Assembly: GCA_029267645.1 (NCBI GenBank)
Contig: JAJUIM010000002.1
Coordinates: forward strand, 1 to 23,761
Source: Microbacterium sp.
GTDB taxonomy: Bacteria > Actinomycetota > Actinomycetes > Actinomycetales > Microbacteriaceae
Direction of reading: 5' to 3'
Length of the DNA: 23,761 nucleotides
This document shows, piece after piece, positions 10,595 through 23,761 of this stretch. How positions within the stretch are numbered: the stretch's first letter is position 1; each line of letters starts with the position of its first letter. The notes under the pieces were generated by a model, which worked only from the letters and a program-made list of their open reading frames with translations, did not search any database and was not told the DNA's origin. The position numbers and the translations under genes are program-made.

Positions 10595-12163
10595 ATGGTG
10601 TCGCGAGGATGCACGGTCTCGCAGGAGGAGGAAGGCGAGGACGAGAAAGCCGGCGAGAGTGCCTGAGACGATCAGCGTGTTGATCGACTGCGCCAACATG
10701 ACGGCGGCGGTGAGCCCGTCCCGGAGCTCAAGGTCGGCGATCATGAGTCCGGGTTCGTCCGCGGCTAGTGCGGCCAGCGTGGCGCCGTTCGGGGCGAGTA
10801 CCTGGCTGGTGCCGGTGGTGGAGAGGTTGACGACGCTGCGGCCGGTCTCGATGGCGCGCATGCGCGCGAACGCAAGCTGTTGCAGGTGTTCATCGGTGTC
10901 GCGAAAGTCGGCGTTGTTCGTCTGGAACATGAGCACCTGGGCACCGCTGTGCGCGCCTTCGTGAATGACGTCATCGAAGGCCACGTCGAAGCAGATCGCC
11001 AGTCCCACCTCTACGCCGTCGACCTCGATGGCGGGTGTGTCGACGCCGGCGGCGTACTCGCGTTCTAGGAGGTCTACCAGGCTGGGCACGAGCGCGCCGT
11101 AGAACCACCGGTCGGGCACGTACTCGCCGAAGGGGACGGGATGGCGTTTGGCGTGCGCGGCCGTCGGCCCGTTCGAGGTCCAGAGGACGGAAGTGTTGTA
11201 GACGAGGTGGCCGTCTGCCGCGGCGGCGTTGAGCAGGATCGGGGCGTCGTATCGGGCGGCTGCATCGTCGAGCGCGTGAGCGGTGGCCTCGTCGGCGAGG
11301 GGATCACTGTCGACGCCGCCCTCGGGCCAGAGCACGATGTCGACCTGTTCGTCTTCGAGAGGGGCGGAAGCGGCGAGCTGAGATTCCAGGACCGCGCCCG
11401 GTTCGTGCTCATCGACGTACGCGGCGGGGCCGTTGCCCTGCACAGCGCCCACCCGGATGGTGCCCGCGTGACTGGTCGGGAACTGCGGCACCAGGACCAT
11501 CACCGCTGCGAGACCGAGCACGGGGATCGACGCCGCCCACGAGGCGAGAGGTGTTCTCGGGTGCTCGGTGGCGTTACCGCGTGCCGGTTGCGCGCGCACA
11601 ATCCAACGGACTGCTTCGATCGCGGCGGCGCACACGGCGACCATCAGGAAGCCCAGGCCGGAGACGCCGACCCATGACGCGACCGGAGCGATCGGGCTTT
11701 CCGATTGGCTCATCGCCACCCGTCCCCACGGGAATCCGCCGTAGGGCCAGGAGCCCATGATGAGTTCGCGGATCGTCCAGGCTCCCGCTACCAGCAGCGG
11801 CAGCGCCAGCAGCCGCATCGCGAAGGCGTTGCGCCGGCGCGGCAGCCATCGGTAGGCGAGGGCGATCGGCACCGTCAGCACAGCCGTGTAGATCGTCAGC
11901 GCGCCAGCCAGGGCCACCCACGGGACCCAGCTCAGCGGATGCTCCCCGAGAAACTGCGCCGACCAGGACACGTGAGGAAACCAGAACGCTGCGCCGAAGA
12001 CTGTCCCGACCAGCAGCGCCCCCCAGGACCGTCGCCCGATGAGAGTGACCAGGGACAACGTCACCGAGACGAACGCCAGCGGCCACCACCCGAGTGCGGG
12101 GAACGCCGCATCCATCGCGAGCCCGGCCACGCCGGCGACTGGCATCGCGGCCCATAGCGGCAA
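10517..12163 (-). CDS. lnt: Apolipoprotein N-acyltransferase
   Basis: Membrane enzyme that adds the third acyl chain to the N-terminal cysteine of lipoproteins. About six N-terminal helices precede a periplasm-side nitrilase domain (about 235-480) and a last helix (about 500-520). The catalytic residues are visible: Glu281 in LWPEGG, Lys339 in HAKRHPVPFGEY, Cys391 in LAICFDVAFDD. The first standard start is TTG 12161-12163, but the frame is open to the trxA stop and an AGGGAG lies just before ATC 12227-12229 and ATT 12224-12226, so a rare upstream start is possible. The last 20-25 residues are antisense to the methyltransferase remnant, so the natural C-terminus was probably replaced. It is last in the thiol operon, and an encoded lipoprotein lies upstream. 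Confidence 0.88.
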   Translation of the reverse strand: MPLWAAMPVAGVAGLAMDAAFPALGWWPLAFVSVTLSLVTLIGRRSWGALLVGTVFGAAFWFPHVSWSAQFLGEHPLSWVPWVALAGALTIYTAVLTVPIALAYRWLPRRRNAFAMRLLALPLLVAGAWTIRELIMGSWPYGGFPWGRVAMSQSESPIAPVASWVGVSGLGFLMVAVCAAAIEAVRWIVRAQPARGNATEHPRTPLASWAASIPVLGLAAVMVLVPQFPTSHAGTIRVGAVQGNGPAAYVDEHEPGAVLESQLAASAPLEDEQVDIVLWPEGGVDSDPLADEATAHALDDAAARYDAPILLNAAAADGHLVYNTSVLWTSNGPTAAHAKRHPVPFGEYVPDRWFYGALVPSLVDLLEREYAAGVDTPAIEVDGVEVGLAICFDVAFDDVIHEGAHSGAQVLMFQTNNADFRDTDEHLQQLAFARMRAIETGRSVVNLSTTGTSQVLAPNGATLAALAADEPGLMIADLELRDGLTAAVMLAQSINTLIVSGTLAGFLVLAFLLLRDRASSRHHRVLDSSQRSSIGLHECADAHRRERL

Positions 12164-12241
12164 GGGCGCAGTCTCGGACGCCCGCGTCCGCGTGTCGGCC
12201 GATGTCTCGACTCTGAGCCCGGAAATGATGCGCTCCCTGTT

Positions 12242-12607
12242 CTAGCGAGGGTCGGACGCCTGCATTTGCGCGCGCACGTGGTCCATGTCGAGGTCGCGGA
12301 TTTTGCCGATCAGGTCGTGGAGCGCTTTGGCCGGGAGCGCTCCGGGCTGGGAGTAGACCAGGACGCCGTCTTTGAAGCCCATCAGCGTGGGGATGGAGGT
12401 GATCTGTGCGGCGGCGGCCAGGGATGCCTGGGCCTCGGTGTCGACCTTGGCGAACAGGATGTCGGGATGCTCGGTGGACGCGGCCTCGAAGACGGGGGCG
12501 AAGCTGCGGCATGGTCCGCACCAGGCGGCCCAGAAGTCGACCAGCACGATGGGATGGTCGGTGATGGCGGCTGAGAATGCGTCTTCGGTGAGGTCGATGG
12601 TTGTCAT
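12242..12607 (-). CDS. trxA: Thioredoxin
   Basis: A 121-residue cytoplasmic thioredoxin with the redox centre WCGPC (Cys30, Cys33) and the cis-proline loop ITSIPTLMGFKDG. It reduces protein disulfides using electrons from thioredoxin reductase. The ten-residue tail after the thioredoxin fold is slightly longer than usual. Start is ATG 12605-12607 with GGAG about ten bases before it. It lies 54 bp after the TauE/SafE gene and 78 bp before lnt (TTG start), inside the minus-strand sulfur operon. Context suggests it recycles persulfide enzymes or feeds the CcdA-like protein, which passes electrons across the membrane. Confidence 0.95.
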   Translation of the reverse strand: MTTIDLTEDAFSAAITDHPIVLVDFWAAWCGPCRSFAPVFEAASTEHPDILFAKVDTEAQASLAAAAQITSIPTLMGFKDGVLVYSQPGALPAKALHDLIGKIRDLDMDHVRAQMQASDPR

Positions 12608-12661
12608 GAGGGTGGGGCTCCGGAGTCTGGTCGGCGACGGTGTGTTGTGAGGTGAAGTGGT

Positions 12662-13555
12662 TCAGCCCGGGGTCGGCCGGGCTAGGCCGAAGGGACAGTT
12701 GAGAGCGGTCAGCCGGCAGACGAGGACGAGGACCACCGTGATGAGTCCGAGGCCTCCGGCGGCGATCGCCCAGGCCGGCGGCAGCTCGATCACGAGCACG
12801 AGCGTTCCGGTGAGCAGGACGAAGACGCCGAAGACCTTCTGGAGGGCGTCGGCTGGTATGCGTTCTGACAGGCGCGCACCGAGGAGCGCTCCGAGCACGG
12901 CCATCGCAGTGACCGCGGCCACCAGGGGCCAGTCGAGGGTCACCGTGGTCAGGTAGCCGGCGAGTCCGGCGAAGGACTTCATCGCGATCACCAGCAGTGA
13001 GGTGCCCACGGCCACCGGCATGCTGAGGCCGCCCAGCAGCACGAGGGCGGGGACGACGAGGAAGCCGCCGCCGGCGCCGACGATCCCGGTGATGAGGCCG
13101 ACGACGATGCCTTCGAGCATGGTCCGCAGCATCGGCAGCGAGTGGGCGCGCTCGGTCCCGGCATCGGCCGTGGGTTGGTCGGTGTCGCGCCTGGGCTTTC
13201 TGGTGACCATCGCGATCGCGGTGGCGATCATCATGATCGCGAAGGCCACCATCAGCACGGCACCGGGGAGCTGGCCTCCGATGAGTCCTCCGGCGAAGGC
13301 GCCCACCATGCCAGCGGCTCCGAAGATGAGCCCGGTGCGCCATCGGACTCGACGGTGCCGGGCGTGCACGACGAGGCTGGACAGCGAGGTCACGCCGACG
13401 ATCAGCAGCGAGGCCGCGATGGCCTCTTTCGGGGGCATGCCCGCGATGTAGGTGAGCAGCGGGACGGTCAGGATCGACCCGCCACCGCCGAGCGTCCCTA
13501 GCGCGAGCCCGACACCCACGGCGAGCACGAGGGTGAGGATCAGGGTGCCGCTCAC
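12662..13555 (-). CDS. TauE/SafE-family sulfite or organosulfonate exporter
   Basis: A 297-residue polytopic membrane protein of the TSUP (DUF81) family. The two family repeats are visible, GTLGGGGSILTVPLL near residues 21-35 and GIVGAGGGFLVVPALVLL near 160-177, with about eight helices and a charged central loop near 120-145. The family exports sulfite, sulfoacetate or related sulfur anions. In cst-type operons such a protein removes sulfite or thiosulfate made by persulfide oxidation, which fits the neighbours here. Start is GTG 13553-13555, whose GTGA overlaps the stop of the shifted rhodanese frame. Confidence 0.9.
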   Translation of the reverse strand: MSGTLILTLVLAVGVGLALGTLGGGGSILTVPLLTYIAGMPPKEAIAASLLIVGVTSLSSLVVHARHRRVRWRTGLIFGAAGMVGAFAGGLIGGQLPGAVLMVAFAIMMIATAIAMVTRKPRRDTDQPTADAGTERAHSLPMLRTMLEGIVVGLITGIVGAGGGFLVVPALVLLGGLSMPVAVGTSLLVIAMKSFAGLAGYLTTVTLDWPLVAAVTAMAVLGALLGARLSERIPADALQKVFGVFVLLTGTLVLVIELPPAWAIAAGGLGLITVVLVLVCRLTALNCPFGLARPTPG

Positions 13556-14277
13556 TCGTGCTCACCGGGCATCGTGGTTGGTGCTGCGGGTCGTGACGCC
13601 GACCGTGCCGATGCCGGTCCTAGATGCGGGGTCGTTGCAGTTGAACGCCGTCGGAACGTCGGAGCACGCCAGGGCATCACAGTTCCTGGGTCGCGACCGG
13701 GATGGATGCGATCGCGCTCCGTGCGGTGGGGCTGGCCGTGACCTTGTTCCAGGGCATGCGGGAGAGGATGCGGCCCATCAGGCAGGAGCCGGTGAGCGCC
13801 GCGACGACGAGCCCGGCGCTGAGCGCGAACGCGATGAACCGGGACTCCGGCCAGAGGAACTCGGCCACGAGCAGGCTCACCAGGACGATCAGCCCGGCCG
13901 TGAACCGCACCCTGGCGCTCGATGTCCCAGCGAGCTGCGCTGCGGACCACCTGGCCGCCAGCGGCCTCGAAGGCGGGCACGCCGCCGGTGAGCACGTTGG
14001 CCGTCCGCACGCCGGCGGCAGCGAGATGCTGCTGGGCCTGGGTGGCGCGGTTGCCGGACTGGCACACGAGTACCGCGCGGTGCCCGAGCCGCTCTGCCAG
14101 ATCCGAGGCGTGTTCGGTCAGCAGCGGCAGCGGGACGTTGTACGAGCCGTGAATGTGGAGGGTCTCGAACTCGGCCGGGGACCGCACGTCGATGATCGTG
14201 AGGTCGTCGTGGAGCTGACGCCACTGGGCGAGCTCCTCGGCGGTGAGCGTTCGGAGCTCGGCGGAGGGATCGGTCAT
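13552..14277 (-). CDS. Rhodanese, out of frame with its DUF2892 partner domain
   Basis: Sulfurtransferase domain with active-site Cys72 in VCQSGNR and preceding IIDVRSPAEFETLHIHGSYNVP. ATG 14275-14277 follows GAGGAA. Residues 1-122, ending RWDIERQ (13912), are genuine; the following 119 residues are arginine/proline-rich and read the wrong frame. The expected continuation, a two-helix DUF2892 domain, is encoded one base out of phase from 13910. Homologues I know carry rhodanese and DUF2892 in one chain of about 190-200 residues, and removal of a single G from the GGG at 13910-13912 restores a 199-residue protein. The shifted frame ends with TGA overlapping the TauE GTG. Could be a real lesion, a sequencing error or two [25 protein letters not shown]. 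Confidence 0.8.
   Translation of the reverse strand: MTDPSAELRTLTAEELAQWRQLHDDLTIIDVRSPAEFETLHIHGSYNVPLPLLTEHASDLAERLGHRAVLVCQSGNRATQAQQHLAAAGVRTANVLTGGVPAFEAAGGQVVRSAARWDIERQGAVHGRADRPGEPARGRVPLAGVPVHRVRAQRRARRRGAHRLLPDGPHPLPHALEQGHGQPHRTERDRIHPGRDPGTVMPWRAPTFRRRSTATTPHLGPASARSASRPAAPTTMPGEHE
13677..13910 (-). CDS. DUF2892 membrane domain (separated half of the rhodanese protein)
   Basis: 77 residues with two hydrophobic segments, about 3-18 (FTAGLIVLVSLLVAEFL) and 24-45, followed by SCLMGRILSRMPWNK, the signature end of DUF2892 domains found C-terminal to rhodaneses (as in YgaP). Such domains hold the sulfurtransferase at the membrane, and YgaP-type proteins have been proposed to handle sulfur or thiocyanate. 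[11 protein letters not shown] could begin at GTG 13908-13910, located directly after the last sensible rhodanese codon plus one G, but no good Shine-Dalgarno precedes it. Independent [11 protein letters not shown] is therefore doubtful. Confidence 0.7.
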   Translation of the reverse strand: MRFTAGLIVLVSLLVAEFLWPESRFIAFALSAGLVVAALTGSCLMGRILSRMPWNKVTASPTARSAIASIPVATQEL

Positions 14278-14377
14278 GGGGTGGTTCCTCGTCAGGTCTG
14301 GCCGCGGGCAGCGGAGATGCGAATGGAAGGGGCTGGGGCCGACCGCCCGTCGGAGGATGCGATCGTTCTGCTGTGCG

Positions 14378-15787
14378 TCAGGCCAGCGCGGTCTCGCTGG
14401 TGGTCTCCTGCCATGCGCGCCAGGCGTTATAGCTGCCGTCGAGCTCGACGACGGCGTGCCCGGCGCGTCGTAGGGCACTCGCGGCGACGGTGTTCCGCAT
14501 CCCGGACTGGCAATAGGTCACGATCGTGCCGGAGCGCGGCAGCTCGTCTTGGTGCCAGAGGACGCGTGCGGCGCTGAGCTGTGTGGCGCCGGGGATGTGC
14601 CCGGCGGCGTACTCGCCGCGCTGGCGCACGTCCAGCAGCAGCGCGGCATCGAAACCTGCCAGCTCTGCCGGCTCGATGAGGGGCGGGACGAACCGGGGAA
14701 GCCCGTCGATGGTGGTGACGTAGCCGGCGGTCTGGTCGATGCCGACCCGCAGCAGCCGATCCGCGATCGCCTGGGCGGCGGTCTGGTCCTCGGCCAGCAG
14801 CACCAGCGGACGCGAGTCGGCCTCGGGATCGTAGGCCCAGGCGGCATAGGTGGCGGTCTTGGAGCCGTCGGGGATGTTGAGCGAGCCGGCAACGGTGCCC
14901 TGATGGGCCTGCGCCGGCGGGCGGGTGTCGACGAAGGTGATCTCGTCGGCCTCCAGCCGCCGCGCCACCTCCGCTACGGCCAGCTCGGGCACCGGGCCGC
15001 GCTCGCCCAGCACGGCGGGACCCTCGCGGTTCTGCTTCTTCATCCTCGCGAAGTAGGCGTGCGCGTCGGGCTGCCCGTCGAGCAGCTCCTCGATGAACCC
15101 CTGCTCGTCGTCGGCAGCCAGGTGGTGCGACCACCAGGCGTTCGCGCGTTCGTAGCCGACCGTGGTCGAGGGCAGCGCGCCGAGCGCCTTGCCGCACGCA
15201 CTGCCGGAGCCGTGCCCCGGGTGGACCTGGACGTGATCCGGCAAGGTCAGGAACACCTCACGCAAGCTGGTGAACAGTTGCCGCGCGCCCTCGAAGCGGG
15301 TGTCGACCCCGCCCGCGGCCTCGTCCAGCAGGTCGGGGCGGCCCAGGTCCCCGGCGAACACGAAGTCGCCGGAGATGAGGTAGCCGGGCTCGCTGGCGAA
15401 GGCGCCGTCGGTGACCAGGAACACCAGGTGCTCAGGAGTGTGACCAGGCGTGTGCCGGGCCTGGATCGTGATGTTGCCGATCGTGATCGTGTCGCGGTCG
15501 TACAGACGCCGGGCGTCGAACCCGTACTGCCAGTCCGCGCCGCCCTCGCCGGAGACGTAGACCTCGGCGCCGACCGCCGCAGCCAGCTCGCGGGTCCCGG
15601 ACAGGTAGTCAGCGTGGATGTGGGTCTCGGTCACTGCGACGATCCGCATGCCGTGCTTGGCCGCGAGCGCCAGGTAGTCCGCGATGTCGCGGCGCGCGTC
15701 GATCACCACCGCCTCGCCCTTGGCCTGGCAGCCGATGAAGTACCCGGCCTGCGCCAGGTCCTCGTCGTAGATGCGTTCGAGGAGCAC
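14378..15787 (-). CDS. CstB-like persulfide dioxygenase with two rhodanese domains
   Basis: 469 residues in three domains. The metallo-beta-lactamase fold (1-255) carries ETHIHADYLSG (His56, His58, Asp60), HTPGHTPEH (His112), DFVFAGDLGRPDLL (Asp147) and HPGHGSGSACGK (His189), the mononuclear-iron pattern of ETHE1-type persulfide dioxygenases. A first rhodanese domain (265-365) has no active-site cysteine. A second (370-465) has Cys426 in YCQSGMR. This dioxygenase, pseudo-rhodanese, rhodanese order is that of CstB from staphylococci, which turns glutathione- or cysteine-persulfides into thiosulfate. GTG 15785-15787 follows GGAAGG seven bases upstream. It is first after two ATACCCC-type operators, so likely derepressed by persulfide. 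Confidence 0.88.
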   Translation of the reverse strand: MLLERIYDEDLAQAGYFIGCQAKGEAVVIDARRDIADYLALAAKHGMRIVAVTETHIHADYLSGTRELAAAVGAEVYVSGEGGADWQYGFDARRLYDRDTITIGNITIQARHTPGHTPEHLVFLVTDGAFASEPGYLISGDFVFAGDLGRPDLLDEAAGGVDTRFEGARQLFTSLREVFLTLPDHVQVHPGHGSGSACGKALGALPSTTVGYERANAWWSHHLAADDEQGFIEELLDGQPDAHAYFARMKKQNREGPAVLGERGPVPELAVAEVARRLEADEITFVDTRPPAQAHQGTVAGSLNIPDGSKTATYAAWAYDPEADSRPLVLLAEDQTAAQAIADRLLRVGIDQTAGYVTTIDGLPRFVPPLIEPAELAGFDAALLLDVRQRGEYAAGHIPGATQLSAARVLWHQDELPRSGTIVTYCQSGMRNTVAASALRRAGHAVVELDGSYNAWRAWQETTSETALA

Positions 15788-15813
15788 TGTTCATCCTTCC
15801 GTCGATGTCATCG

Positions 15814-15857
15814 ATACCCTGGGGGGTATTTTTACCGTCTCATACCCCCTGGGGTAT
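15814..15857 (-). promoter_or_regulatory. Two CsoR/CstR-type operators before the CstB-like gene
   Basis: ATACCCTGGGGGGTAT at 15814-15829 and ATACCCCCTGGGGTAT at 15842-15857 are near-palindromes, 28 bases apart, in the 71 bp upstream of the CstB-like start. G/C tracts bounded by AT-rich ends are the known operator form of CsoR, FrmR and CstR family repressors. A third, perfect copy sits before the CsoR-family gene's own operon. Read on the minus strand, each ends in GGGTAT, so the TAT may begin a -10 element (TATCGA, TATGAG) and binding would cover the promoter. Promoter hexamers are weak matches. Confidence 0.85.
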
Positions 15858-15858
15858 T

Positions 15859-17103
15859 TCAAGTCGAGTCTGCGACCCGAGCACCCACGATCGACATGCC
15901 CGCGTGGCTGGACGTCGGGAAGGACTCGTTCAGAGGGGACTCAGCGATCGTCGCCACCAGGTGCCGTCGTTCCTGGAGGAGGAGTGCAGCGCCGTTGATG
16001 GTGATGTGGGTGGGCACGATGATCGGTCCTTGGCCGTCGGGTTCGTAGGCTTGGGCGACATCGCCGGTGAGGACGTTGTGGACCCGGATCGCCCCGTCCT
16101 CTCGCAGGTAGAGGAAGACGCCGCCGATCGCGGCGATGGTGGTCTCGGCGGCAACAGGCAGGGACCACAGCGGTCGGTCGTCGGCGTCGTAGCCGTGCAG
16201 GCCGGTGTCGTCCAGGGTGACGAGGGTCCCCGTGGTGGGGTCTACGGCGGCGTCGCGGGCGGTGCTGCTCACGATGCTGCCCTGATCCAGGTTGAGGAGC
16301 GCGCCGGTGGTCTCGGAGGTGGCGATGAGCGCGAGCCCGTCTCCCGGTTCAGGGCGCAGGGACGCGCTGATGGACGCCGCTGTCCAGCCGTGCTCGGCGA
16401 GGGGGATGCGCCAGAGCTCGTGATCGTCGGCCGTGTCGCGCGCGATCAGAGCGTCCTCGTGGGTGAGCAGCACGATGCCGTGGTACTCGCCGATGATGCG
16501 GATACCTTCAGGGCTCGACTCGTCGGCCGCGACGTCTCCGGTGGTGGGATCGAGCGCGACGCGTGGGCCGGTCTCGCCCATGAAGCCATCGGGAGGTGCG
16601 GCGAAGACCAGGCCGGGGCCTTGGTAGGGGCCGGGCACCTCGACCGGACCCCAGACCTGTTCCCCGGTCGTCAGGTCGTAGGCGGTGGCAGTCGTCGCGG
16701 CCAGGGCATCGGCCGTGATCTGGAGGTCGCCCAGGATCGCGAGGGCTCGGCCATGCGCGTCGGTGGTCACGACGAACCCGGTGCAGCTCGCTGGACGTTA
16801 CGCGGCCCACAGCACGTCCCCGTAGACGTCCACGGCGGTGAACTCCAGCACACCGTCGCGTTCACCGGCGGCCAGGTACACCCCGTCCGCGTACTGAGGA
16901 GTTGATGTCCACCCGGGGTCCACGACCTCCAGCTCCTCGAACGGCGTCGGCAGCTGCAAGCCCGAGGTGTCCACCACGGGTAGCGACCCATCGACCGGGT
17001 AGGGGTCTCTTACGGGCTCGGGCTCGGATGCCCCGCAGCCGGTCACCAGCAGCGCGGCCACGGCGGCGAGGGCAAGGCTGGAGCGTCCCCGGCGCGGCGT
17101 CAT
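15859..17103 (-). pseudogene. Lipoprotein with beta-propeller-like (PQQ-type) repeats, interrupted by an in-frame stop
   Basis: The reading frame runs from ATG 17101-17103 to TGA 15859-15861 and would encode 414 residues, but TAA at 16798-16800 stops it after 101. No frame change occurs at the stop: the text reads VLWAA, stop, RPASCTGFVV. The N-terminus has a basic start, a hydrophobic run and the lipobox LVTGC (Cys23). Downstream are repeated blade-like pieces (AYDLTTGEQVW, VALDPTTGD, DTADDHELWRIPL, GYDADDRPLWSLP) typical of PQQ-like propellers. It should be an outer-face lipoprotein of unknown partner. ATGA overlap links it to the CcdA gene. A short secreted N-terminal lipoprotein may still be made, and re-initiation at GTG 16770 would lack a signal. 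Confidence 0.75.
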
Positions 17104-17969
17104 GACTGTTCCGCGCGGTGCTCGCCCGCCGGGGCGTCAGCGCGAGCGTGGGTACGGCGGCGTCTGGCCCAGAGCACGAGCACGATCCCGGCGATGAGGA
17201 CGACGGCGAGGATGTCCAGGATCGGGTTCGCCAGGATCGCGGTGTTCTCCTGGAGCCAGGCCTGGGCGTCGAGCGGAACCAGTTCGGGAGCCCCGACCAG
17301 GCCGTTGGTGGTCCAGAACAGCACCCCGACGCCCACGATCAGCAGCCCGGTGACCACCGAGGTGGTGTGCAGCTCCCGGCCCAGCACGGTGAACGATCGC
17401 CCGCGCAGGAACCGGCGTCCACGGGCGCCCAGGCGCTGCCAGAGCGCGGCGATCAGCAGCAGCGGCAGCACCATGCCCGCGCCGTACACGGCGAGCATGA
17501 CGCCGGCGGCGAGGGTGTCGCCGCGGGCGGCGGCCAGGGTGAGCACGGCGCCCAGGATCGGGCCGGCGCAGAATCCCGCGATGCCGCTGGCAGCGCCCAG
17601 CAGCACCGTCTTGACGAGTCCGGTCTTGGACGCCGCTTGCGCGTGCAGGTCTGCCCCGGCCGGTAGCAGCCGGGCAGGGTCGAACCCGAACCCGAGCGCC
17701 TGCGCCGCGCCGAGGACGACCAGGACCAGCGAGGCGACGAGCACGATCGCCTGCCGGTGAGTCACGAACAGCGTCCCCAGGGCGCCGGCTCCGACCCCCA
17801 CGGGGACCAGGACGGTCAGCAGGCCGACGTAGAACACGGCTCCGTGCAGCAGCAGCCGGGGCCCGCTGCCGATCGTGGAGGCGAAGAACGCCGGCATCAG
17901 CAGCGCCGCGCACGGGCTCAGCAGCGCGAGCGTGCCGCCGGCGAACGCGGCGAGCAGTCCGATGTCCAC
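17100..17969 (-). CDS. CcdA/DsbD-like membrane thiol-disulfide transporter
   Basis: 289-residue membrane protein that carries reducing equivalents from cytoplasmic thioredoxin to extracytoplasmic thiol proteins. The two redox cysteines are Cys20 in LSPCAALLMP and Cys134 in GFCAGPILGA, both with the family's proline contexts. Six CcdA helices are followed by an additional segment (about 205-289) with two further hydrophobic stretches and an extracytoplasmic loop, which simple CcdA proteins lack. Start is GTG 17967-17969, six bases after the dsbA-like stop. Its stop overlaps the lipoprotein start as ATGA. A cytochrome c maturation role is unlikely since no heme genes are nearby. Confidence 0.9.
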   Translation of the reverse strand: MDIGLLAAFAGGTLALLSPCAALLMPAFFASTIGSGPRLLLHGAVFYVGLLTVLVPVGVGAGALGTLFVTHRQAIVLVASLVLVVLGAAQALGFGFDPARLLPAGADLHAQAASKTGLVKTVLLGAASGIAGFCAGPILGAVLTLAAARGDTLAAGVMLAVYGAGMVLPLLLIAALWQRLGARGRRFLRGRSFTVLGRELHTTSVVTGLLIVGVGVLFWTTNGLVGAPELVPLDAQAWLQENTAILANPILDILAVVLIAGIVLVLWARRRRTHARADAPAGEHRAEQS

Positions 17970-17975
17970 GCCGCC

Positions 17976-18728
17976 TCACTCCGCCGCGTCGAGCGCGCTC
18001 TGGAACGCTTCCTGGAACACCTCGGTGGGCTGCGCCCCGACGATCGGCTGTCCGCCCAGGATGAAGATCGGGGTGGAGGTGGCGCCGAGGTCGAACCCGA
18101 ACTGCTGGTTGGCGGCGATCACCTGCGCCGTCTCCTCCGAGCCCAGGTCGGCGGCGAACTGCTCGGTGTCCAAACCGAGTTCGCCCGCCAAGGCGACGAG
18201 GGCTTCCTCGCTCAGCTCGCTCTCGGACCTGCGCTCCCCGTCCTCGAACAGGGCGTCGTGGTACTCCCAGAGCGCCCCCTGGAGGGCGGCGGCGTACGAG
18301 GCCCGCGCTGCGCGCTCGGACGCGGGACCGAACACGTTGATGTCGCGCCACTCGATCCGCAGATCCCCGGCGTCGACGTGCTCCATCATCGACGGCAGTG
18401 TCTGCTCGCTCCACCGCGCGCAGAACGGGCACTGATAGTCCGAGAACACTACCAGCACCACCGGCGCATCCACGGGCCCGGCCGCGAGCAGGTCCGCCTC
18501 GTCCCTGGTCTCGGCCGCAGACAGGTCCGGTTGCTCGGGGTTCTGCACCTCCGTCGGCGCGCCGCTATCCGACGGCGAGCCCCCCTCCTCGGCCGTCGTG
18601 CCACTCCAGTTCACCGCCACGATCACGGCGATCAGGACAGCAGCCAGGGTCAACACGGCGACCGGCACGACCCATGACGACCTCGAACGGTTCGACGGTT
18701 TCGGGCGGTTCGTGGTCTCGGTGGGCAT
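17976..18728 (-). CDS. DsbA-family membrane-anchored thiol oxidoreductase
   Basis: 250 residues: basic cytoplasmic N-terminus, one anchor helix (about 20-40), an acidic Ser/Glu/Pro-rich linker, then a DsbA-type thioredoxin fold with CPFC (Cys100, Cys103) and the cis-proline loop ATSTPIFILGG near 218-228. It acts outside the membrane on disulfides, either oxidising or, with CcdA next door, reducing. ATG 18726-18728 follows AGGAGA at seven bases. It opens the minus-strand series and starts 40-60 bases from the BlaI-type operators. Confidence 0.93.
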   Translation of the reverse strand: MPTETTNRPKPSNRSRSSWVVPVAVLTLAAVLIAVIVAVNWSGTTAEEGGSPSDSGAPTEVQNPEQPDLSAAETRDEADLLAAGPVDAPVVLVVFSDYQCPFCARWSEQTLPSMMEHVDAGDLRIEWRDINVFGPASERAARASYAAALQGALWEYHDALFEDGERRSESELSEEALVALAGELGLDTEQFAADLGSEETAQVIAANQQFGFDLGATSTPIFILGGQPIVGAQPTEVFQEAFQSALDAAE

Positions 18729-18766
18729 AGGGATTCTCCTGTCACTGTCGCGGGCACCGACCTCTA

Positions 18767-18787
18767 CTATCTCAGATAGTCGACTAT
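18767..18787. promoter_or_regulatory. BlaI-type operator cluster between divergent operons
   Basis: Two overlapping palindromes: CTATCTCAGATAG at 18767-18779 and ATAGTCGACTAT at 18776-18787. GATAGTCG at 18775-18782 and a variant GGTAGTCG at 18792-18799 add half-sites. A plus-strand TATGCG (18785-18790) could be a -10 element inside the block. Symmetric sites with TAGTC/GACTA cores in the control region of a blaI operon are the expected targets of the encoded repressor, which would control both the dsbA-ccdA side and its own operon. The same half-sites recur at 23539-23572. Confidence 0.75.
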
Positions 18788-18811
18788 GCGTGGTAGTCGA
18801 GTCGTGTCAGA

Positions 18812-19411
18812 ATGGGTTCCATGACCTCTCCCACGACTCGATCCCGCCAGGGCATCGGCGAAAGCTTCCGGTTGGCGGTCCAGGCGCTTCGAGGGTGGAC
18901 GGGCAGGCAGGTGCTGGCCGCGATCGCTGCCTCGGCGGTTGTCGCGGTGGTGATCGGGGTGGCGACGGTGCTGATCCCCAACCCGCTGTTCGGTCGAGAC
19001 ATCCCGCCGGTGTGGTGGAACTATCCGGTGTGGCTGGTCACCTCGGTGCTGTCGGGCATGCTGGTCGCTACGTATATCCGCCCGTACCGCGCCGCCGCGG
19101 ACGAGCAGCAGGCGAATGCGGTCAGCGAGGACGGCGCCGCCACCGACGCGGCCGATGAGGCGCAGGCTCGGCGCAGCAGCCGGATGGGAATGGCCGGCGG
19201 CATCCTGGCGTGGTTCGCGGTGGGGTGCCCGGTGTGCAACAAGCTGGCGCTGCTGGCGCTGGGGTACTCGGGAGCGATCACCTGGTTCACCCCCGTGCAG
19301 CCGTTCCTCGCGCTCGGCGCGCTGATCCTGACCGGCGTCGCACTGGTGTGGCGACTACGCGGGCAGGTCGCTTGCCCGGTCCGCCCCGAGCCGGTGGCGG
19401 CTGTGCGATGA
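18812..19411 (+). CDS. Four-helix membrane protein with a GCPVCNK motif, unknown function
   Basis: 199 residues from ATG 18812 (an ATG at 18821 is an alternative; neither has a clear Shine-Dalgarno). Hydrophobic segments lie at about 35-56, 70-89, 128-150 and 163-181, with a soluble acidic loop at 95-125. The third helix holds GCPVCNK (Cys139, Cys142), a CxxC in a membrane setting, and a further Cys188 lies in the tail. I have seen GCPxCN proteins beside CcdA/DsbA-like genes in actinobacteria, but I know no assigned function. Electron transfer, metal transport or redox sensing are all possible. The stop overlaps blaI as ATGA, so it is the first gene of the BlaI operon. Confidence 0.8.
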   Translation: MGSMTSPTTRSRQGIGESFRLAVQALRGWTGRQVLAAIAASAVVAVVIGVATVLIPNPLFGRDIPPVWWNYPVWLVTSVLSGMLVATYIRPYRAAADEQQANAVSEDGAATDAADEAQARRSSRMGMAGGILAWFAVGCPVCNKLALLALGYSGAITWFTPVQPFLALGALILTGVALVWRLRGQVACPVRPEPVAAVR

Positions 19412-19797
19412 AGGCCGCCGATGGGCGCTCCGGCGACCTGCTGCGCCTGGGGGCGTTGGAAGCGCAGGTGATGGACGTGCTGTGGGACCACGGCCCGGCT
19501 ACCGTGCGCGAAGTGATCGAGCACCTGCCCTCCGACCCCGCCTACACCACCATCGCGACCGTGCTCACCAACCTGGATCGCAAGCGCCTGGTGACCATCA
19601 CGAGGCAGAACCGGTCCACCCGGTACGGCGCCAAGATCACCAGGCACGAGCACGCCGCGGGGCTGATGGAGCAGGTGCTGGAGGCTAGCCGCGACCGGGC
19701 CGCCTCGATCCTGCAGTTCGTGGACTCGATGCCCGAGAACGACCTGGACCTGCTGCGCGACTACCTGGAACGCCGCGACCGGGGAGACATGCCATGA
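19408..19797 (+). CDS. BlaI/MecI/CopY-family transcriptional repressor
   Basis: 129 residues from ATG 19408. A winged helix occupies about residues 12-80: LGALEAQVMDVLWDHGPATV opens it, and AYTTIATVLTNLDRKRLV is the recognition-helix region conserved in the family. The C-terminal helices (85-125) dimerise. Family members are inactivated by proteolysis by a partner M56 membrane protease, here encoded immediately downstream with ATGA overlap. Its likely targets are the palindromes at 18767-18787 and 23539-23572. Confidence 0.93.
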   Translation: MKAADGRSGDLLRLGALEAQVMDVLWDHGPATVREVIEHLPSDPAYTTIATVLTNLDRKRLVTITRQNRSTRYGAKITRHEHAAGLMEQVLEASRDRAASILQFVDSMPENDLDLLRDYLERRDRGDMP

Positions 19798-20777
19798 CCG
19801 CGGGCATCCTCACGATGGCTCTGTGCACCGGACTGGTGGCATTGGCGGTGTTCGGGCCGTGGTTGCTGCGGCACGCTGCCCCCGCCCTGGTGCGCGTCCC
19901 GCGCTTGGCGATCGTGGTCGTCGCCGGCGGCATCGGGGTCTGGCTGGTCACGCTGCTGGCGATCGGCCCGGTGCTGGCCTGGGCCGGAGCCGGCCCCGCG
20001 CTGCTGCCCGAACGCGCGGCCGAGGTCTGCCAACGGTGCCTGACCGCCGCGAACCCGTTCTCCGCCGACACCACCGAAACCCTGATCCCCGCGGTGCTGC
20101 TGCTCGCCCTGCCGGTGGCGCTGGCCCTTGCTCTGGGAGCAGGTCTTGCCCGCCAGATGGTTCGGCGCAGCTCTCGCTCCCGGGACGCCGCCCGCACGCT
20201 GCTGCACGGCGCGCGGCGGCAGCTCCTTCACGGGCACGAGGTGGCACTGGTCGACGCCGAGCACCCGTTCGCGCTTACCTTCCCCGACCGTCACGGCGGG
20301 ATCGTGCTCTCCACCGGCGCGGTGCGCGCGCTGGGGCCGGGCGAGCTGGCCGCCGTGCTGGCCCACGAGCACGCCCACCTGCACCAACGCCACCACCTCA
20401 TCACCGCGCTAGTGGACAGCATCGCCGCCTACCTACGGTGGGTGCCGCTGATCCGCGCTGTCGCCGACGCGCTGCCGCACTACCTGGAGATCGCCGCGGA
20501 CGACCAGGCCCGCCGTCACGCAGGAACCCCGGCGCTGGTCAGCGCCCTGGTCAAGCTCGGCGAACGCACCCACCCCGCCATGCCGCAGCACTCCTGCCCT
20601 GTCGCCTTGCACGCCGCTGGTCCCGAACGCATCCGCCACCTCGTCCACCCCAGCGCCGGGCTGGCAGGCGCCCTGCCCGCCGTCGCGATCGCCGCATACC
20701 TGGCCGGCATGGCCGCCCTTGCTGCCCTCGTCCATCTGCCCTACGTCTCGGCCGCCCTCACCGGCTGCACCATCTGA
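19794..20777 (+). CDS. M56-family membrane metalloprotease (BlaR1/MecR1-like, no sensor domain)
   Basis: 327 residues. Hydrophobic segments at about 3-26, 36-66, 96-120 and 290-315 flank a cytoplasmic zinc protease domain with VLAHEHAHLHQRHH (His191, Glu192, His195) and a downstream glutamate in YLEIAADDQA. Expected to cleave the neighbouring BlaI-type repressor on receiving an outside signal. There is no penicillin-binding sensor domain. The loop between helices two and three carries Cys79 and Cys82 in EVCQRCLTAANP, a CxxC that should face outside. Two more cysteines lie in the C-terminal third (HSCPVAL and the final GCTI). Confidence 0.92.
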   Translation: MTAGILTMALCTGLVALAVFGPWLLRHAAPALVRVPRLAIVVVAGGIGVWLVTLLAIGPVLAWAGAGPALLPERAAEVCQRCLTAANPFSADTTETLIPAVLLLALPVALALALGAGLARQMVRRSSRSRDAARTLLHGARRQLLHGHEVALVDAEHPFALTFPDRHGGIVLSTGAVRALGPGELAAVLAHEHAHLHQRHHLITALVDSIAAYLRWVPLIRAVADALPHYLEIAADDQARRHAGTPALVSALVKLGERTHPAMPQHSCPVALHAAGPERIRHLVHPSAGLAGALPAVAIAAYLAGMAALAALVHLPYVSAALTGCTI

Positions 20778-20809
20778 CCCTGCCGGAAACCAAGAGAGAA
20801 CACCAAACA

Positions 20810-21136
20810 ATGAATGAGAACACCCGTGAGGTGATCCTGCACGTGGCCGACGACCCCGCCGACGTGCAACGGGCGCTGGACGCCGCCGCCGGACTCCACG
20901 CCGCCGGCCTGGGAGTGCGGGTGCGGGTGATCGTCAACGGCCCGGCACTGGCCGGCCTGACCGGCACCGATGCCGTCCAGGTGCCCGAGCACACCGAGGT
21001 GGCCGCGTGCAGCATCGGGCTCGGACGGCGCGGCATCGACCCCGGCGAGTTGCGACCCGAGGTCGGCACGGTCCCCTCCGCGGTCACCGCGATCGTCCAT
21101 GCGCAACTGGCCGGCGCCGCCTACATCCGCATCTGA
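20810..21136 (+). CDS. DsrE-like sulfur-carrier family protein
   Basis: 108 residues from ATG 20810, with AGAGAG about ten bases upstream. The fold pattern EVILHVADDP, RVRVIVNGPAL and VEACS-like Cys67 in VAACSIGLGRRGI followed by VPSAVTAIVHAQLAGAAYIRI matches COG1416 DsrE-like proteins. In DsrE/TusD proteins this cysteine carries persulfide sulfur. It lies 32 bp after the M56 protease gene and so is probably last in the BlaI operon. Role in sulfur relay is inferred from the family and the island content. Confidence 0.8.
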   Translation: MNENTREVILHVADDPADVQRALDAAAGLHAAGLGVRVRVIVNGPALAGLTGTDAVQVPEHTEVAACSIGLGRRGIDPGELRPEVGTVPSAVTAIVHAQLAGAAYIRI

Positions 21137-21682
21137 CCGGACCAGAAAGCCTGGGATGAGGCCGGACAGTATCTGGCAGGCAAAGCCCGGGGCCTGCAGC
21201 GGGCGGGAGCGGACTTCATCGCCTGCGGGAGCAACACGATGCACCGAGTCGCGCCCGTCATCGAGGCGGCGATCACCGTCCCATTCCTGCACATCGCCGC
21301 TGTGGTCGCGACCACAGCGACCGACATCGGGGTGACCCGGCTGGGACTGCTCGGCACCGCGCCGACGATGGAACAGGACTTCTACCGGAGAAGACTCGAG
21401 CGAGCGGGCTTCACTGTGCTGACCCCGGAGCCCGTCGACCGGACCACGGTCGATCAGATCATCTTCGACGAGCTGACCAGACACGTGTTCCGGCCTGAGT
21501 CTCGGGAGACCTACATCCGGGTCATGACAAACCTCCACGCGGCCGGGGCCGAGGCGGTCGTGCTCGGATGCACCGAGATCATCCTCTTGGTCGGCCCCGA
21601 CGACGTGCCGGGACTGCCGCTGCTTGACTCGACCACGCTGCACGTCGAAGCCATCGTCCAGACCGCGATATCCCGCGGCTAA
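21137..21682 (+). pseudogene. Aspartate/glutamate racemase, N-terminus missing
   Basis: From immediately after the DsrE stop and in the same frame, the sequence reads KAWDEAGQYLAGKARGLQRA, then GADFIACGSNTMHRV, matching racemase homologues from about residue 55 onward. Both catalytic cysteines are present (ACGSNTMH and LGCTEI). The first 50-55 residues, including the GGMSW strand, are absent; intact proteins are about 230 residues, while this has 181. The only standard in-frame ATG is at 21239, inside the active-site loop, so a functional product is unlikely. The junction near 21140 is probably a deletion or insertion point. Confidence 0.75.
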
Positions 21683-21721
21683 GCCGCCCCACAGCGGGTC
21701 CGCCGCGCCGGGACGAGCCGG

Positions 21722-22375
21722 TCACCGGCGCTGGAGGAGAAGTACCCCGTCGGTCAGCTCGGCGGCCTCGCCGGAAGGGGCGGTGGCGTGTCGGGTGTGC
21801 GTCTGGATGCTCAGGACGAGCCAGTCGTGCTCGTTGAGGTTCAGCTCCACGAACTGTCGTGCCGGGCTGGGAAAGCTGTGCGCGGGATGATCCGCGGCGT
21901 CGACCCAGGGTGGGAGTGCGGCGTGGGAGAGGACCACGAGGTGACCGCCGGCGCGCACCGTAGTGGCTGCGCGTTGCAGGATCGCGATGCGCGGGAGCGG
22001 GACAGGCGAGTGCAGGAAGCTGGCGGTCACCAGATCGTAGGGGCCGTCGTCCGGCTCCCACCGTGCCAGGTCGGCAGTGACGAACCGGGTGGCCGCGCTG
22101 GCCTGTTGACGCTGAGCCTCGCGGCGTGCGCGGGCGATAGCGGTGGCGGAGATGTCCACGCCGGTGACGAGCCAGCCCTGGGTGGCGAGCCAGATCGCAT
22201 CGGCGCCCTCCCCGCACCCCAGATCCAGCGCTTTCCCCGGAGCCAAGTGCTGCACAGCGTTGACCAGGCTAGGGTTCGGGCGGCCCGACCACACGCGCTC
22301 GGCGTCCCGGTAGCGGCCCTCCCAGAACTCCTGAGGATTCTGAGAGGGCGAGTCGTGGCGCGTGGCGCCTGTCAT
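21722..22375 (-). CDS. Class I SAM-dependent methyltransferase
   Basis: 217 residues from ATG 22373-22375. FWEGRYRDAERVWSGRPNPSL precedes motif I, ALDLGCGEGADAIWLA (residues 49-64), with GVDISATAIARAR as motif II. This arrangement is typical of small methyltransferases annotated as TehB- or thiopurine-like. A substrate is not apparent; a thiol, sulfide or metalloid would suit the location. ATG overlaps the stop of the 58-residue gene as ATGA. Frame is open 25 codons further but that overlaps the upstream gene. Confidence 0.88.
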   Translation of the reverse strand: MTGATRHDSPSQNPQEFWEGRYRDAERVWSGRPNPSLVNAVQHLAPGKALDLGCGEGADAIWLATQGWLVTGVDISATAIARARREAQRQQASAATRFVTADLARWEPDDGPYDLVTASFLHSPVPLPRIAILQRAATTVRAGGHLVVLSHAALPPWVDAADHPAHSFPSPARQFVELNLNEHDWLVLSIQTHTRHATAPSGEAAELTDGVLLLQRR

Positions 22376-22548
22376 CGTCCGAACAGGCGGGCGAAGAACC
22401 CGCTCGTCGCGGCTGCCTTCTCCTTCTCCTTGTCGTGTCCGGGGCACCACTGGCCCGCCGGCACGGTGCGCTTGACCTCGGCGATGTGCTGGCCGCAGCC
22501 GGCCCAGGTTGTCTTGCCGCAGGTCTTACAGGTCACAGCTCGGCACAT
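22372..22548 (-). CDS. Small Cys-rich zinc-ribbon-like protein
   Basis: 58 residues from ATG 22546-22548, with AAGGAAG about ten bases upstream. Cys7, Cys10 and Cys18 (CKTCGKTTWAGCGQH, His21) plus Cys35 and His38 (WCPGH) give a pattern suited to one bound zinc or other metal. The C-terminal third is Lys/Glu-rich and then ends FFARLFGR. I recall similar short proteins with GKTTWAGCGQH in actinobacterial genomes, with no known function. ATGA overlap with the methyltransferase shows coupled [11 protein letters not shown] and favours a real gene. Confidence 0.8.
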   Translation of the reverse strand: MCRAVTCKTCGKTTWAGCGQHIAEVKRTVPAGQWCPGHDKEKEKAAATSGFFARLFGR

Positions 22549-22602
22549 GGATTGCTTCTTCCTTCGAGGGCTGTCTGTCGGTTGGTCGTGAGGATCGCTC
22601 GT

Positions 22603-22878
22603 TCAGGCGAGCGTGAGGAACAGCTTCTCCAGCTCCTCGGTGGTGATGTCGTCGGCACGGTCGGTGCCGTCGGGGTCGGCGATGCAGTCCTTCATCGCAG
22701 TGGAGATGATCGCGAACCCGGCACGGTCAAGCGCCGAGGAGACCGCCGCGAGCTGGGTCACCACCTCCCGGCACGACCCGCCGCCTTCGACCGCGTCAAT
22801 GACGGCGTTGAGCTGGCCGCGGGCGCGGCGGAGCCGGTTGAGGATGCGGCGCTGGGCGTCGGGGTCACTCGTGGACAT
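22603..22878 (-). CDS. CsoR/FrmR/CstR-family repressor, CstR-like by its ligand residues
   Basis: 91 residues. RRILNRLRRARGQLNAVIDA opens the four-helix family fold. Residues at the sensor positions are Cys36 (GGSCREVV) and Cys65 (AMKDC), while position 61, where copper-sensing CsoR has His, is Ala. That Cys-Cys without His pattern is that of CstR, which senses persulfides by forming di- or tetrasulfide links, not copper. ATG 22876-22878 follows AGGAG. The start lies inside the end of the DUF2892-like gene. Three ATACCCC-type palindromes in the window are the likely binding sites. A formaldehyde or metal sensor remains possible. Confidence 0.9.
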   Translation of the reverse strand: MSTSDPDAQRRILNRLRRARGQLNAVIDAVEGGGSCREVVTQLAAVSSALDRAGFAIISTAMKDCIADPDGTDRADDITTEELEKLFLTLA

Positions 22879-23185
22879 GAGAACTCCTGTTCGGGACGGG
22901 GGCGCTCGTCAGGTCGACGTGCTGCCGGGCATCGGGGATGTCGAGTGTGTGCTGCGGCGTCTGAGGCTGCCGACGAGTGGTGAGCCAGCTCGTCGGGCAT
23001 GTTCCTGTGACCGCCATGACCGCGATGACGGTGGCCATCACGCCGGCGGCTACCGCGATCGCCGGGTCCGTCGACAGCATGGATGCACCGAACGCGCCGA
23101 CGATCAGGGCGACGGCTCCACGGCTCAGCCGCCCCCATACGCCGGCGCGGCATGCCGGGGCGCAGGTGAGCTGTCGGTCAGACAT
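22865..23185 (-). CDS. DUF2892-like membrane protein with His-containing tail
   Basis: 106 residues from ATG 23183-23185, preceded by AGAGGAG at eight bases. N-terminus has CAPAC (Cys8, Cys12). Hydrophobic segments lie at about 22-42 and 45-63, ending MAVTGTCPTSWL, which fits the DUF2892 pattern ending in CP. A soluble 40-residue tail follows with several histidines and ends HVHE. Likely membrane-bound partner in sulfur handling, as DUF2892 is elsewhere joined to rhodanese. The 3' end overlaps the start of the CsoR-family gene by 14 bases. Confidence 0.72.
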   Translation of the reverse strand: MSDRQLTCAPACRAGVWGRLSRGAVALIVGAFGASMLSTDPAIAVAAGVMATVIAVMAVTGTCPTSWLTTRRQPQTPQHTLDIPDARQHVDLTSAPVPNRSSHVHE

Positions 23186-23312
23186 AGGCGAAACTCCTCT
23201 GACTGTCAGGAACGTCGTCGAGTGGGTGGTCGGCCCAAAAGCCCAGGATCGGCACCGAGCTCTCCTCGACCACCCGGGTCGGGTTCTCTCGCCTGATCTC
23301 GGTCGCGCCCAT
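23178..23312 (-). CDS. 44-residue ORF at a leaderless start, unknown function
   Basis: ATG 23310-23312 begins six bases after a TATAGT -10 element, so a transcript would start at or next to the ATG. The frame codes MGATEIRRENPTRVVEES, then PILGFWADHPLDDVPDS, and ends eight bases inside the next gene. It has no known motif. A leaderless small protein or a leader peptide coupling [11 protein letters not shown] into the DUF2892-like gene are both plausible; chance is not excluded. Confidence 0.45.
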   Translation of the reverse strand: MGATEIRRENPTRVVEESSVPILGFWADHPLDDVPDSQRSFAYV

Positions 23313-23318
23313 GACGCC

Positions 23319-23348
23319 ACTATACCCCCGGGGGTATCGCGATCTCAA
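23319..23348 (-). promoter_or_regulatory. Promoter with embedded CsoR/CstR-type operator
   Basis: Minus-strand TTGAGA (23343-23348) and TATAGT (23319-23324) are separated by 18 bases. The perfect 16-base palindrome ATACCCCCGGGGGTAT (23322-23337) fills the spacer and shares three bases with the -10 element. A bound tetramer would occlude RNA polymerase. It precedes the operon with the CsoR-family gene, so autoregulation is expected. Confidence 0.85.
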
Positions 23349-23538
23349 CTTTGTCATCGCAGCGTCGCGAACGAGGTCTCCGCGACAGAGGCAAGCGGAC
23401 TCTCCGGACGGTTGTGCAGCGCCCGCCGATCGCTCCTCGCGCAGCCCACTCCTCTCGGACCGCGTGGGCCGCAGAGGTCACGAACCGGGCGGGAGGCGGC
23501 TGCCCCACGGCGGCCGGCGAAAACAGGCTGAACCATAC

Positions 23539-23572
23539 GACTATGCTAGATAGTAACTATCATGGATAGTCG
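23539..23572 (+). promoter_or_regulatory. Second BlaI-type operator block
   Basis: CGACTAT (23539-23545), the palindrome GATAGTAACTATC (23549-23561) and GATAGTCG (23565-23572) repeat the half-sites found before the blaI operon 4.8 kb away. A TATGCT (23542-23547) may be the -10 element of the plus-strand gene that follows. The match suggests that the gene at the right edge belongs to the same BlaI regulon. The remaining DNA at 23349-23538 shows no convincing gene. Confidence 0.7.
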
Positions 23573-23575
23573 AAC

Positions 23576-23761
23576 ATGAGGTTGGTCAACATGCGGAACG
23601 GGGTTCGGAGCATGCGGGAGACAGTCGGACGGAGTAAGCCACCGCCGCGGCGCTGGCATGGGTTCCTCAGCGCGGCGGCGGGGACGGTCCTCGTCCTCGC
23701 TGGCGGGGCGCTGCTGGTAGGCCTTCTCGCCGCGCCGGAGCGGGTCGAGTATGTGTACGGG
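23576..23761 (+). CDS. N-terminus of a single-anchor membrane or secreted protein (runs off the window)
   Basis: Open frame from ATG 23576, with alternatives at 23591 (GAGG nine bases before it) and 23612. Basic residues precede a hydrophobic segment (GTVLVLAGGALLVGLL) and then PERVEYVYG, after which the window ends. This is an N-terminal anchor or signal sequence; nothing more can be assigned. Placement straight after BlaI-type operators suggests an envelope component of the BlaI regulon. Confidence 0.6.
   Translation, partial: MRLVNMRNGVRSMRETVGRSKPPPRRWHGFLSAAAGTVLVLAGGALLVGLLAAPERVEYVYG

Follow-up and report, generated by a model that had tools for sequence, protein, structure and literature searches.

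A BlaI–M56 pair without a penicillin sensor, predicted to control thiol-disulfide genes in actinobacteria

Contig JAJUIM010000002.1 of Microbacterium sp. (assembly GCA_029267645.1; genome of 2.37 Mb in 477 contigs, 90.5% complete) was analysed over its entire 23,761 bases, here called the window. It encodes a BlaI-family repressor and an M56-type membrane protease beside a set of thiol-disulfide proteins. The same genes recur in related genomes together with tandem copies of a short operator dyad and with conserved cysteines in the protease. Judged from sequence, the module appears to be a form of the known BlaR1–BlaI switch that lacks the penicillin sensor and is present in many actinobacteria. 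A BlaI regulon of thiol-disulfide genes is well supported by the distribution of the dyad, and we hold it highly probable, close to certain, that BlaI controls these genes. No description of a BlaI–M56–disulfide module was found in the PubMed Central (PMC) literature searched, a collection that mostly excludes subscription papers and preprints.

Predicted operator dyads at BlaI-linked disulfide genes

On the forward strand from position 18812, the window encodes a membrane protein named here after its GCPVCNK motif, the BlaI-family repressor, the M56-type protease and a weakly DsrE-like open reading frame (ORF); each of the first three genes overlaps its neighbour among them by a few bases. 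Divergent from them, on the reverse strand, lie the genes for a DsbA-like oxidoreductase, a CcdA-type protein and a lipoprotein. The features of this core and its predicted operators are as follows.

15859–17103, reverse strand: lipoprotein, PQQ/BamB-like propeller (PF13360, E 6.2e-7 on its second part)
17100–17969, reverse strand: CcdA-type membrane thiol-disulfide carrier (PF02683, E 2.8e-12; 46.8 bits, above the cut-off of 27.1)
17976–18728, reverse strand: membrane-anchored DsbA-like oxidoreductase with a CPFC active site (PF01323, E 3.9e-19; 69.6 bits, above the DSBA-domain cut-off of 25.6)
18766–18780: predicted BlaI operator dyad 1a from the dyad search, ACTATCTCAGATAGT, 37 bp from the dsbA start
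18783–18797: predicted BlaI operator dyad 1b from the dyad search, ACTATGCGTGGTAGT, one mismatch, 14 bp before the GCPVCNK start
18812–19411, forward strand: GCPVCNK membrane protein
19408–19797, forward strand: BlaI-family repressor (PF03965, E 1.2e-26; 93.7 bits, above the curated cut-off of 22.6)
19794–20777, forward strand: M56 (BlaR1-like) membrane protease with HExxH, Cys79-x-x-Cys82 and Cys325, and no beta-lactam-binding domain
23540–23554: predicted BlaI operator dyad 2a from the dyad search, ACTATGCTAGATAGT
23556–23570: predicted BlaI operator dyad 2b from the dyad search, ACTATCATGGATAGT

The predicted operator unit is a 15-bp dyad, ACTAT-N5-ATAGT, arranged in tandem pairs 16–17 bp apart. 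The first pair occupies the gap between the divergent dsbA and GCPVCNK genes. At up to one mismatch, the dyad occurs four times in the whole 2.37-Mb genome and every time in the window, against three occurrences of a reversed control pattern; at up to two mismatches the window still holds four, a number that shuffled sequence never reached (mean 0.54, maximum 3). An earlier note, made from the letters of the window, had pointed to matching GATAGTCG/CGACTATC sites. The octamer GATAGTCG is indeed found exactly at 18775 and 23565, but it is weak as a site in its own right: it has 29 matches at up to one mismatch where 18.8 are expected, and 4 of 100 shuffles reach 29, so that it was dropped in favour of the dyad pairs. 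A variant with a shorter spacer, ACTATN4ATAGT, gave no match, and N5 fitted.

The dyad was followed through two sets of related loci. An order set held 40 loci, mostly the best scoring, from 65 matching genomes among 396 searched in the same order; a second set held the best 80 of 514 relatives. Removing 6 same-record duplicates from these 120 left 114 loci, in which the near-identical mobile copies L111–L115 were retained. Of the 114, 87 have a BlaI gene no more than 6 kb away and are hereafter called the BlaI loci, and the other 27 were scored as lacking one; L140 is among the latter, though its contig stops about 1.2 kb past the GCPVCNK gene. In 85 of the 87 BlaI loci a dyad with at most one mismatch stands upstream of the GCPVCNK gene (74 exact; 64 with two or more), and all 87 carry one somewhere in the locus, whereas first-order resampled sequence yields a dyad in a mean of 0.19 of 87 loci and in 2 at most. 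The spacing is 16 bp in 20 cases, 17 bp in 50 and different in 8. Among the 27 loci without BlaI, the upstream dyad is found once, in the cut contig of L140, and a dyad anywhere twice (L139 and L140).

The gene neighbourhood recurs as well. In the synteny comparison that the earlier note had suggested, 84 of the 87 BlaI loci have DsbA nearby, 83 have CcdA, 82 have M56 and 65 have the lipoprotein. The GCPVCNK–BlaI–M56 operon and its divergence from dsbA–ccdA–lipoprotein stand as that note had described them; the DsrE-like gene, which it had counted into the operon, does not belong to the core, and relatives of it occur in only 7 of 114 loci. In 73 of the 87 loci dsbA diverges from the GCPVCNK gene, an arrangement in which a single operator could act on either of them. 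Three loci yielded no dsbA, and 11 have it at another place, convergent in 7 and on the same strand in 4. A separate dyad directly upstream of dsbA is present in 10 of these 11 rearranged loci, Mycobacterium sp. 141 being the exception; the operator tracks dsbA itself.

Whole-genome scans gave the same picture. The exact dyad was searched in the genomes of 24 of the 26 BlaI carriers of the order set and, as a comparison, of 13 of the 14 order-set loci without BlaI. In the carriers, 32 of 35 exact dyads lie inside the cluster; 2 of the 24 genomes contain none. Two of the three outside dyads form a tandem pair before another dsbA in genome G161. The dsbA behind this second tandem operator (L217:5228-5259) is followed by a CtaG-type gene, and another ccdA and dsbA run divergently from the two. 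The lone exact dyad of G217, between unrelated genes, is probably due to chance, given that the 13 comparison genomes hold three exact dyads and that the reversed pattern occurs three times in the 24 carriers and four times in the 13. The tandem pattern, scanned in 26 of the genomes behind the best-80 loci, matched 29 times in 20 genomes, always inside cluster loci by coordinates, and its reversed form never matched.

A draw from the class that was not seeded by cluster genes yielded tandem dyads in 5 of 394 genomes, in each case beside a BlaI–M56 pair. The five are the window, G104, G540 and two genomes from other orders that also encode GCPVCNK, DsbA and CcdA. The G540 operator, a tandem of ACTAC type (L248:6728-6758), separates a generic BlaI gene from cytochrome bd genes in divergent orientation (PF01654, E 2.5e-159; PF02322, E 9.5e-109). 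This agrees with the statement, in the part of PMC5473688 that was available, that mycobacterial BlaI binds the cytochrome bd and ATP synthase promoters. On the genome-wide, locus-set and class-draw counts, a chance motif was rejected. The co-occurrence of operator and BlaI in the 114 loci, the rearranged dsbA genes and the class draw lend good support to the proposal of the earlier note that the pair controls thiol-disulfide genes and not a beta-lactamase.

The proteins encoded by these genes keep their cysteines. The CxxC of DsbA is present in 27 of 27 sequences, and Cys20 and Cys134 of CcdA are each present in 26 of 27. The GCPVCNK protein has no Pfam, NCBIfam or PDB relative, and its model (predicted local distance difference test score, pLDDT, 76.9), in which a helix is broken at the motif, has no PDB fold match at E 0.001. 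Within the family, Cys139 and Cys142 of the motif and the C-terminal Cys188 are invariant in 40 sequences.

The M56 protease and BlaI as a candidate relay

At 327 residues, the M56 protein stops directly behind helix 4 and has no penicillin-binding sensor domain (no such Pfam match). Its model, with a mean pLDDT of 85, comprises four long helices and a zinc-protease core, and His191, Glu192 and His195 are invariant in 26 aligned sequences. The protein falls below the cut-off of PF05569 (E 8e-6; 25.7 bits against 31) and above that of PF01435, an M48-type match (E 2.2e-7); NCBI annotates a plasmid copy as an M56 family metallopeptidase. Foldseek returned no match for the model at E 0.001. Its top entry was human ZMPSTE24 (E 0.043), and BlaR1 chains followed with probabilities of 0.94–1.00, E values of 0.1–0.2 and TM-scores of 0.2–0.3.

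A V-C-x-x-C motif (Cys79 and Cys82) lies between helices 2 and 3 and is invariant in the 26 aligned sequences, most of which also end in a cysteine (Cys325 here). In a table of 87 cluster M56 rows, which retains duplicates, the CxxC is present in 86 and the CxxC together with the C-terminal cysteine in 82. The 18 M56 proteins beside other BlaI genes of the order include none with the CxxC and 2 with a cysteine near the C-terminus. According to the part of PMC9834060 that was available, extracellular loop 1 (EL1; residues 56–96) of BlaR1 lies between helices 2 and 3, and the beta-lactam displaces this loop, which acts on helix 3 leading to the protease. Given this role of EL1 and helix 3, the cysteines of the M56 protein are placed where a signal could be read. 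By analogy with BlaR1, from which the side of the membrane is taken, the CxxC loop would face outwards. From their position and conservation we infer that the EL1 cysteines are probably the sensor.

BlaI itself matches a single PDB entry by sequence, the M. tuberculosis structure 2g9w (E 1.2e-14). In a tree built from 46 cluster rows together with 22 further ones, among which one gene appears twice, 45 of the 46 cluster sequences form one clade with support of 97/86, a rough bootstrap over few columns that had not settled; the one left out is that of Mycobacterium sp. 141. Of 27 BlaI sequences, 26 have Phe104, which corresponds roughly in position to Phe102 of the S. aureus protein; the excerpt of PMC9834060 at hand places the cleavage of S. 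aureus BlaI between Asn101 and Phe102. A protease relay fits the BlaR1-like M56 model and the phenylalanine at the S. aureus cut position, and we regard it as very likely that M56 relays to BlaI.

Four loci of Cellulomonadaceae without M56 beside BlaI (L147, L162, L182 and L189) encode a BlaI with a CPD[ED]LC cysteine pair; a similar pair is found in some loci that retain M56 (L052 and L060). The Cellulomonadaceae protein may be an abridged form of the switch with its sensing step in the cytoplasm, which is a guess.

Proposed mechanism and alternatives

On balance we lean towards a one-component envelope relay of the BlaR1–BlaI type, rewired to thiol chemistry, in which a cysteine-gated M56 protease would derepress thiol-disulfide genes. 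At rest, BlaI bound to tandem ACTATN5ATAGT dyads would repress GCPVCNK–blaI–m56 and dsbA–ccdA–lipoprotein; in the mobile form it would also repress the gene at the contig edge. M56 would keep the BlaR1 core of four membrane helices and a cytosolic HExxH domain, without the beta-lactam sensor. The EL1 CxxC before helix 3 and the external C-terminal cysteine would change state, through a disulfide made or broken or through persulfidation; the change would move helix 3, activate the protease and lead to cleavage of BlaI beside Phe104. DsbA, CcdA and the GCPVCNK protein would then be produced and restore the thiol-disulfide balance outside the membrane. A protease-relayed response to redox or sulfur stress had been proposed in the earlier note: its relay fits the BlaR1-like model and Phe104, while the signal is conjectural and gains new support from the CxxC in the predicted external loop.

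A wider claim is tentative, and we hold it with some reserve: these proteins could form a widespread actinobacterial branch of BlaR1–BlaI in which an EL1 cysteine switch replaces the beta-lactam receptor domain, so that M56 would directly sense the external thiol-disulfide state and report it, via BlaI cleavage, to a small disulfide-enzyme regulon including the new GCPVCNK family. If this is true, actinobacteria would have a dedicated regulator of envelope disulfide chemistry. The module further suggests that the BlaR1–BlaI relay is also disseminated as a stress response unconnected with antibiotics. By what route an M56 protein that lacks a penicillin-binding domain receives its signal is a question that the excerpt of PMC5473688 describes as open for mycobacterial BlaR. 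A single M56 clade that combines one operator sequence and a small, unvarying regulon with a candidate switch makes this question testable by a few point mutations and a reporter.

Several observations weigh against this interpretation. In the model-based search BlaR1 scores no better than E 0.1 and ranks below human ZMPSTE24, and the EL1 loop of M56 is modelled at low confidence (pLDDT 55–71). Five of the 87 BlaI loci have no M56 match nearby (the four Cellulomonadaceae loci and L075), and Mycobacterium sp. 141 (L151) combines an M56 without CxxC, a BlaI outside the clade and a dsbA without a dyad. The GCPVCNK gene is also present without BlaI, in 27 of 114 loci. In G161, the extra operator pair at a dsbA that is followed by a CtaG-type gene could point to copper. 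Finally, the counts are not independent, because the loci share ancestry and include near-copies; the rearranged loci, the whole-genome scans and the class draw weaken this objection.

Sequence does not tell metals, reactive sulfur and envelope disulfide state apart. We think it fairly likely that thiol-disulfide or reactive-sulfur chemistry, and not a metal, is what the module senses. Thiol-disulfide chemistry is favoured because DsbA and CcdA are the constant effectors, P-type metal-ATPase signatures occur in only 5 of the 87 BlaI loci and a crude search revealed no penicillin-binding ORF. A sensor of thiophilic metals, for which CopY regulators and Scs proteins provide the comparison, is rather unlikely. 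Here the EL1 CxxC and the C-terminal cysteine would bind Cu(I), Ag or Hg outside, and DsbA and CcdA would protect or repair metal-sensitive thiols. The CxxC plus a third cysteine could form a soft-metal site, the G161 operator pair would fit, and BlaI scores weakly on the CopY model TIGR02698 (33 bits, below the cut-off of 121.95). This explanation has to contend with the scarcity of metal-ATPase signatures and the constancy of DsbA and CcdA, and also with the neighbour clusters common to at least 6 of the 67 BlaI loci of the best-80 set (ORFs of at least 120 residues, inspected by eye), among which no copper-export or metal-binding family was found.

A sensor of sulfide or of sulfane sulfur (persulfide or polysulfide) is unlikely: its cysteines would be persulfidated, and the regulon would restrain external reactive sulfur. 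It draws on the sulfur genes of the island described below, which resemble the sulfane-sulfur circuit of S. coelicolor in the available part of PMC7533328, and on comparable neighbours, thioredoxin or sulfur genes, that lie within 8.5 kb in 25 of the 87 BlaI loci and in 10 of the 27 loci without BlaI. Such neighbours are absent from 62 of the 87, however, and in S. coelicolor a CsoR-type regulator is dedicated to the circuit (same excerpt). Very unlikely, in our judgement, is a sensor of beta-lactams, the cell wall or the respiratory state, in which a BlaR lacking the sensor domain would respond, as in mycobacteria, to stress on the cell wall or on respiration and would count the disulfide enzymes among its outputs. 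The ACTAC-type operator between the generic BlaI and cytochrome bd genes of G540 would suit it. Set against it are the mere 3 of 35 exact dyads outside the cluster in the 24 carriers, the 18 other BlaI-paired M56 proteins without CxxC, and a crude SxxK-SxN-KTG search of ORFs of at least 150 residues in the 87 loci (1.32 Mb), which found none. A beta-lactamase regulon was rejected, since the scans made of the window ORFs and the 87 loci revealed no such genes. Within the window, a Pfam scan of the 29 main ORFs or ORF segments found no penicillin-binding or serine beta-lactamase family, as the earlier note had stated; the sole Lactamase_B match is a metallo-hydrolase with rhodanese domains at 14378–15787.

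The relay proposed here resembles S. aureus BlaR1–BlaI and MecR1–MecI in having a BlaI repressor beside an HExxH M56 protein with a modelled, BlaR1-like helix plan and in the phenylalanine at the position of the S. aureus cut. It differs in having no beta-lactam domain and no beta-lactamase or penicillin-binding protein gene, and in its EL1 CxxC, its ACTATN5ATAGT operator and its disulfide-enzyme outputs. Mycobacterial BlaR–BlaI (Rv1845c–Rv1846c) is close in that its BlaR also lacks a sensor domain, according to the excerpt of PMC5473688, and in that its BlaI structure, 2g9w, is the sole PDB sequence match; blaC, ATP synthase and cytochrome bd have been reported as its targets, and the excerpts available give no dsbA–ccdA link. 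CopY/TcrY copper repressors share the BlaI superfamily, but the window BlaI reaches 33 bits where that family's cut-off is 122, and metal-ATPase signatures are rare in its loci. A membrane-anchored DsbA-like effector is also part of mycobacterial DsbA–VKOR oxidative folding, as described in the part of PMC12421883 at hand; in the window CcdA adjoins instead of VKOR, and the operator is of BlaI type. The CsoR/CstR circuit of S. coelicolor (ScCsoR–PDO–rhodanese–transporter; PMC7533328, in excerpt) has a gene set comparable to that of the island but a separate regulator, and most BlaI loci lack such neighbours.

The mobile island and neighbouring genes

Positions 10229–23761 of the window are 99.2% identical to part of a Microbacterium plasmid, typed as non-mobilizable in PLSDB. 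A 99% identical block is also present in Cellulosimicrobium and Microlunatus, and one of 96–98% identity in Haematomicrobium and Thermocrispum, while none of 34 same-genus genomes examined contains the GCPVCNK gene. From the near-identical copies and this absence we infer a recent spread of the island across families by transfer. Compared with the plasmid copy, the window lacks some 182 bp at about 21147, and with them the start of an Asp/Glu-racemase-like gene.

The island also carries, at 12242–15787 and 22603–22878, genes for a metallo-hydrolase (persulfide-dioxygenase)–rhodanese protein, a rhodanese–YgaP protein, TauE, a thioredoxin and a CsoR-family regulator, which probably form a sulfane-sulfur cluster. 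Copper CsoR has a ligand histidine at a position where this regulator has an alanine; its FrmR and RicR matches are below cut-off.

In the window copy, the lipoprotein gene is split into 16798–17103 and 15859–16770 by an in-frame stop at 16798–16800. Seven relatives read through intact there, including the 99% identical plasmid copy, and the stop, confined to this copy, may be a real mutation or an assembly error.

Two further features complete this part of the window:

20810–21136, forward strand: DsrE-like ORF outside the conserved core (PF02635, E 0.0041; 17.7 bits, below the cut-off of 22.7)
23576–23761, forward strand: start of the edge gene for a membrane-anchored protein, cut by the contig end; start codon uncertain

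The earlier note had placed an operator before the edge gene, and the dyad pair at 23540–23570 is present there; the gene itself was found only in the near-identical mobile copies and in one locus of Leucobacter ruminantium, in which dyads separate the gene from dsbA. L113 lacks the second operator pair, which counts against the pattern, and in Brevibacterium casei that pair sits before a different ORF, which we take to encode an AraC-type regulator. The edge protein has 192 residues in full-length relatives (full copy at L042:14151-14729). Searches for its relatives gave nothing in Pfam at E 1 or in the PDB at E 10; a sortase was considered by eye from sequence motifs and, with neither search matching, is not claimed. 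Its AAHNNC and LQTCFYGED stretches are conserved.

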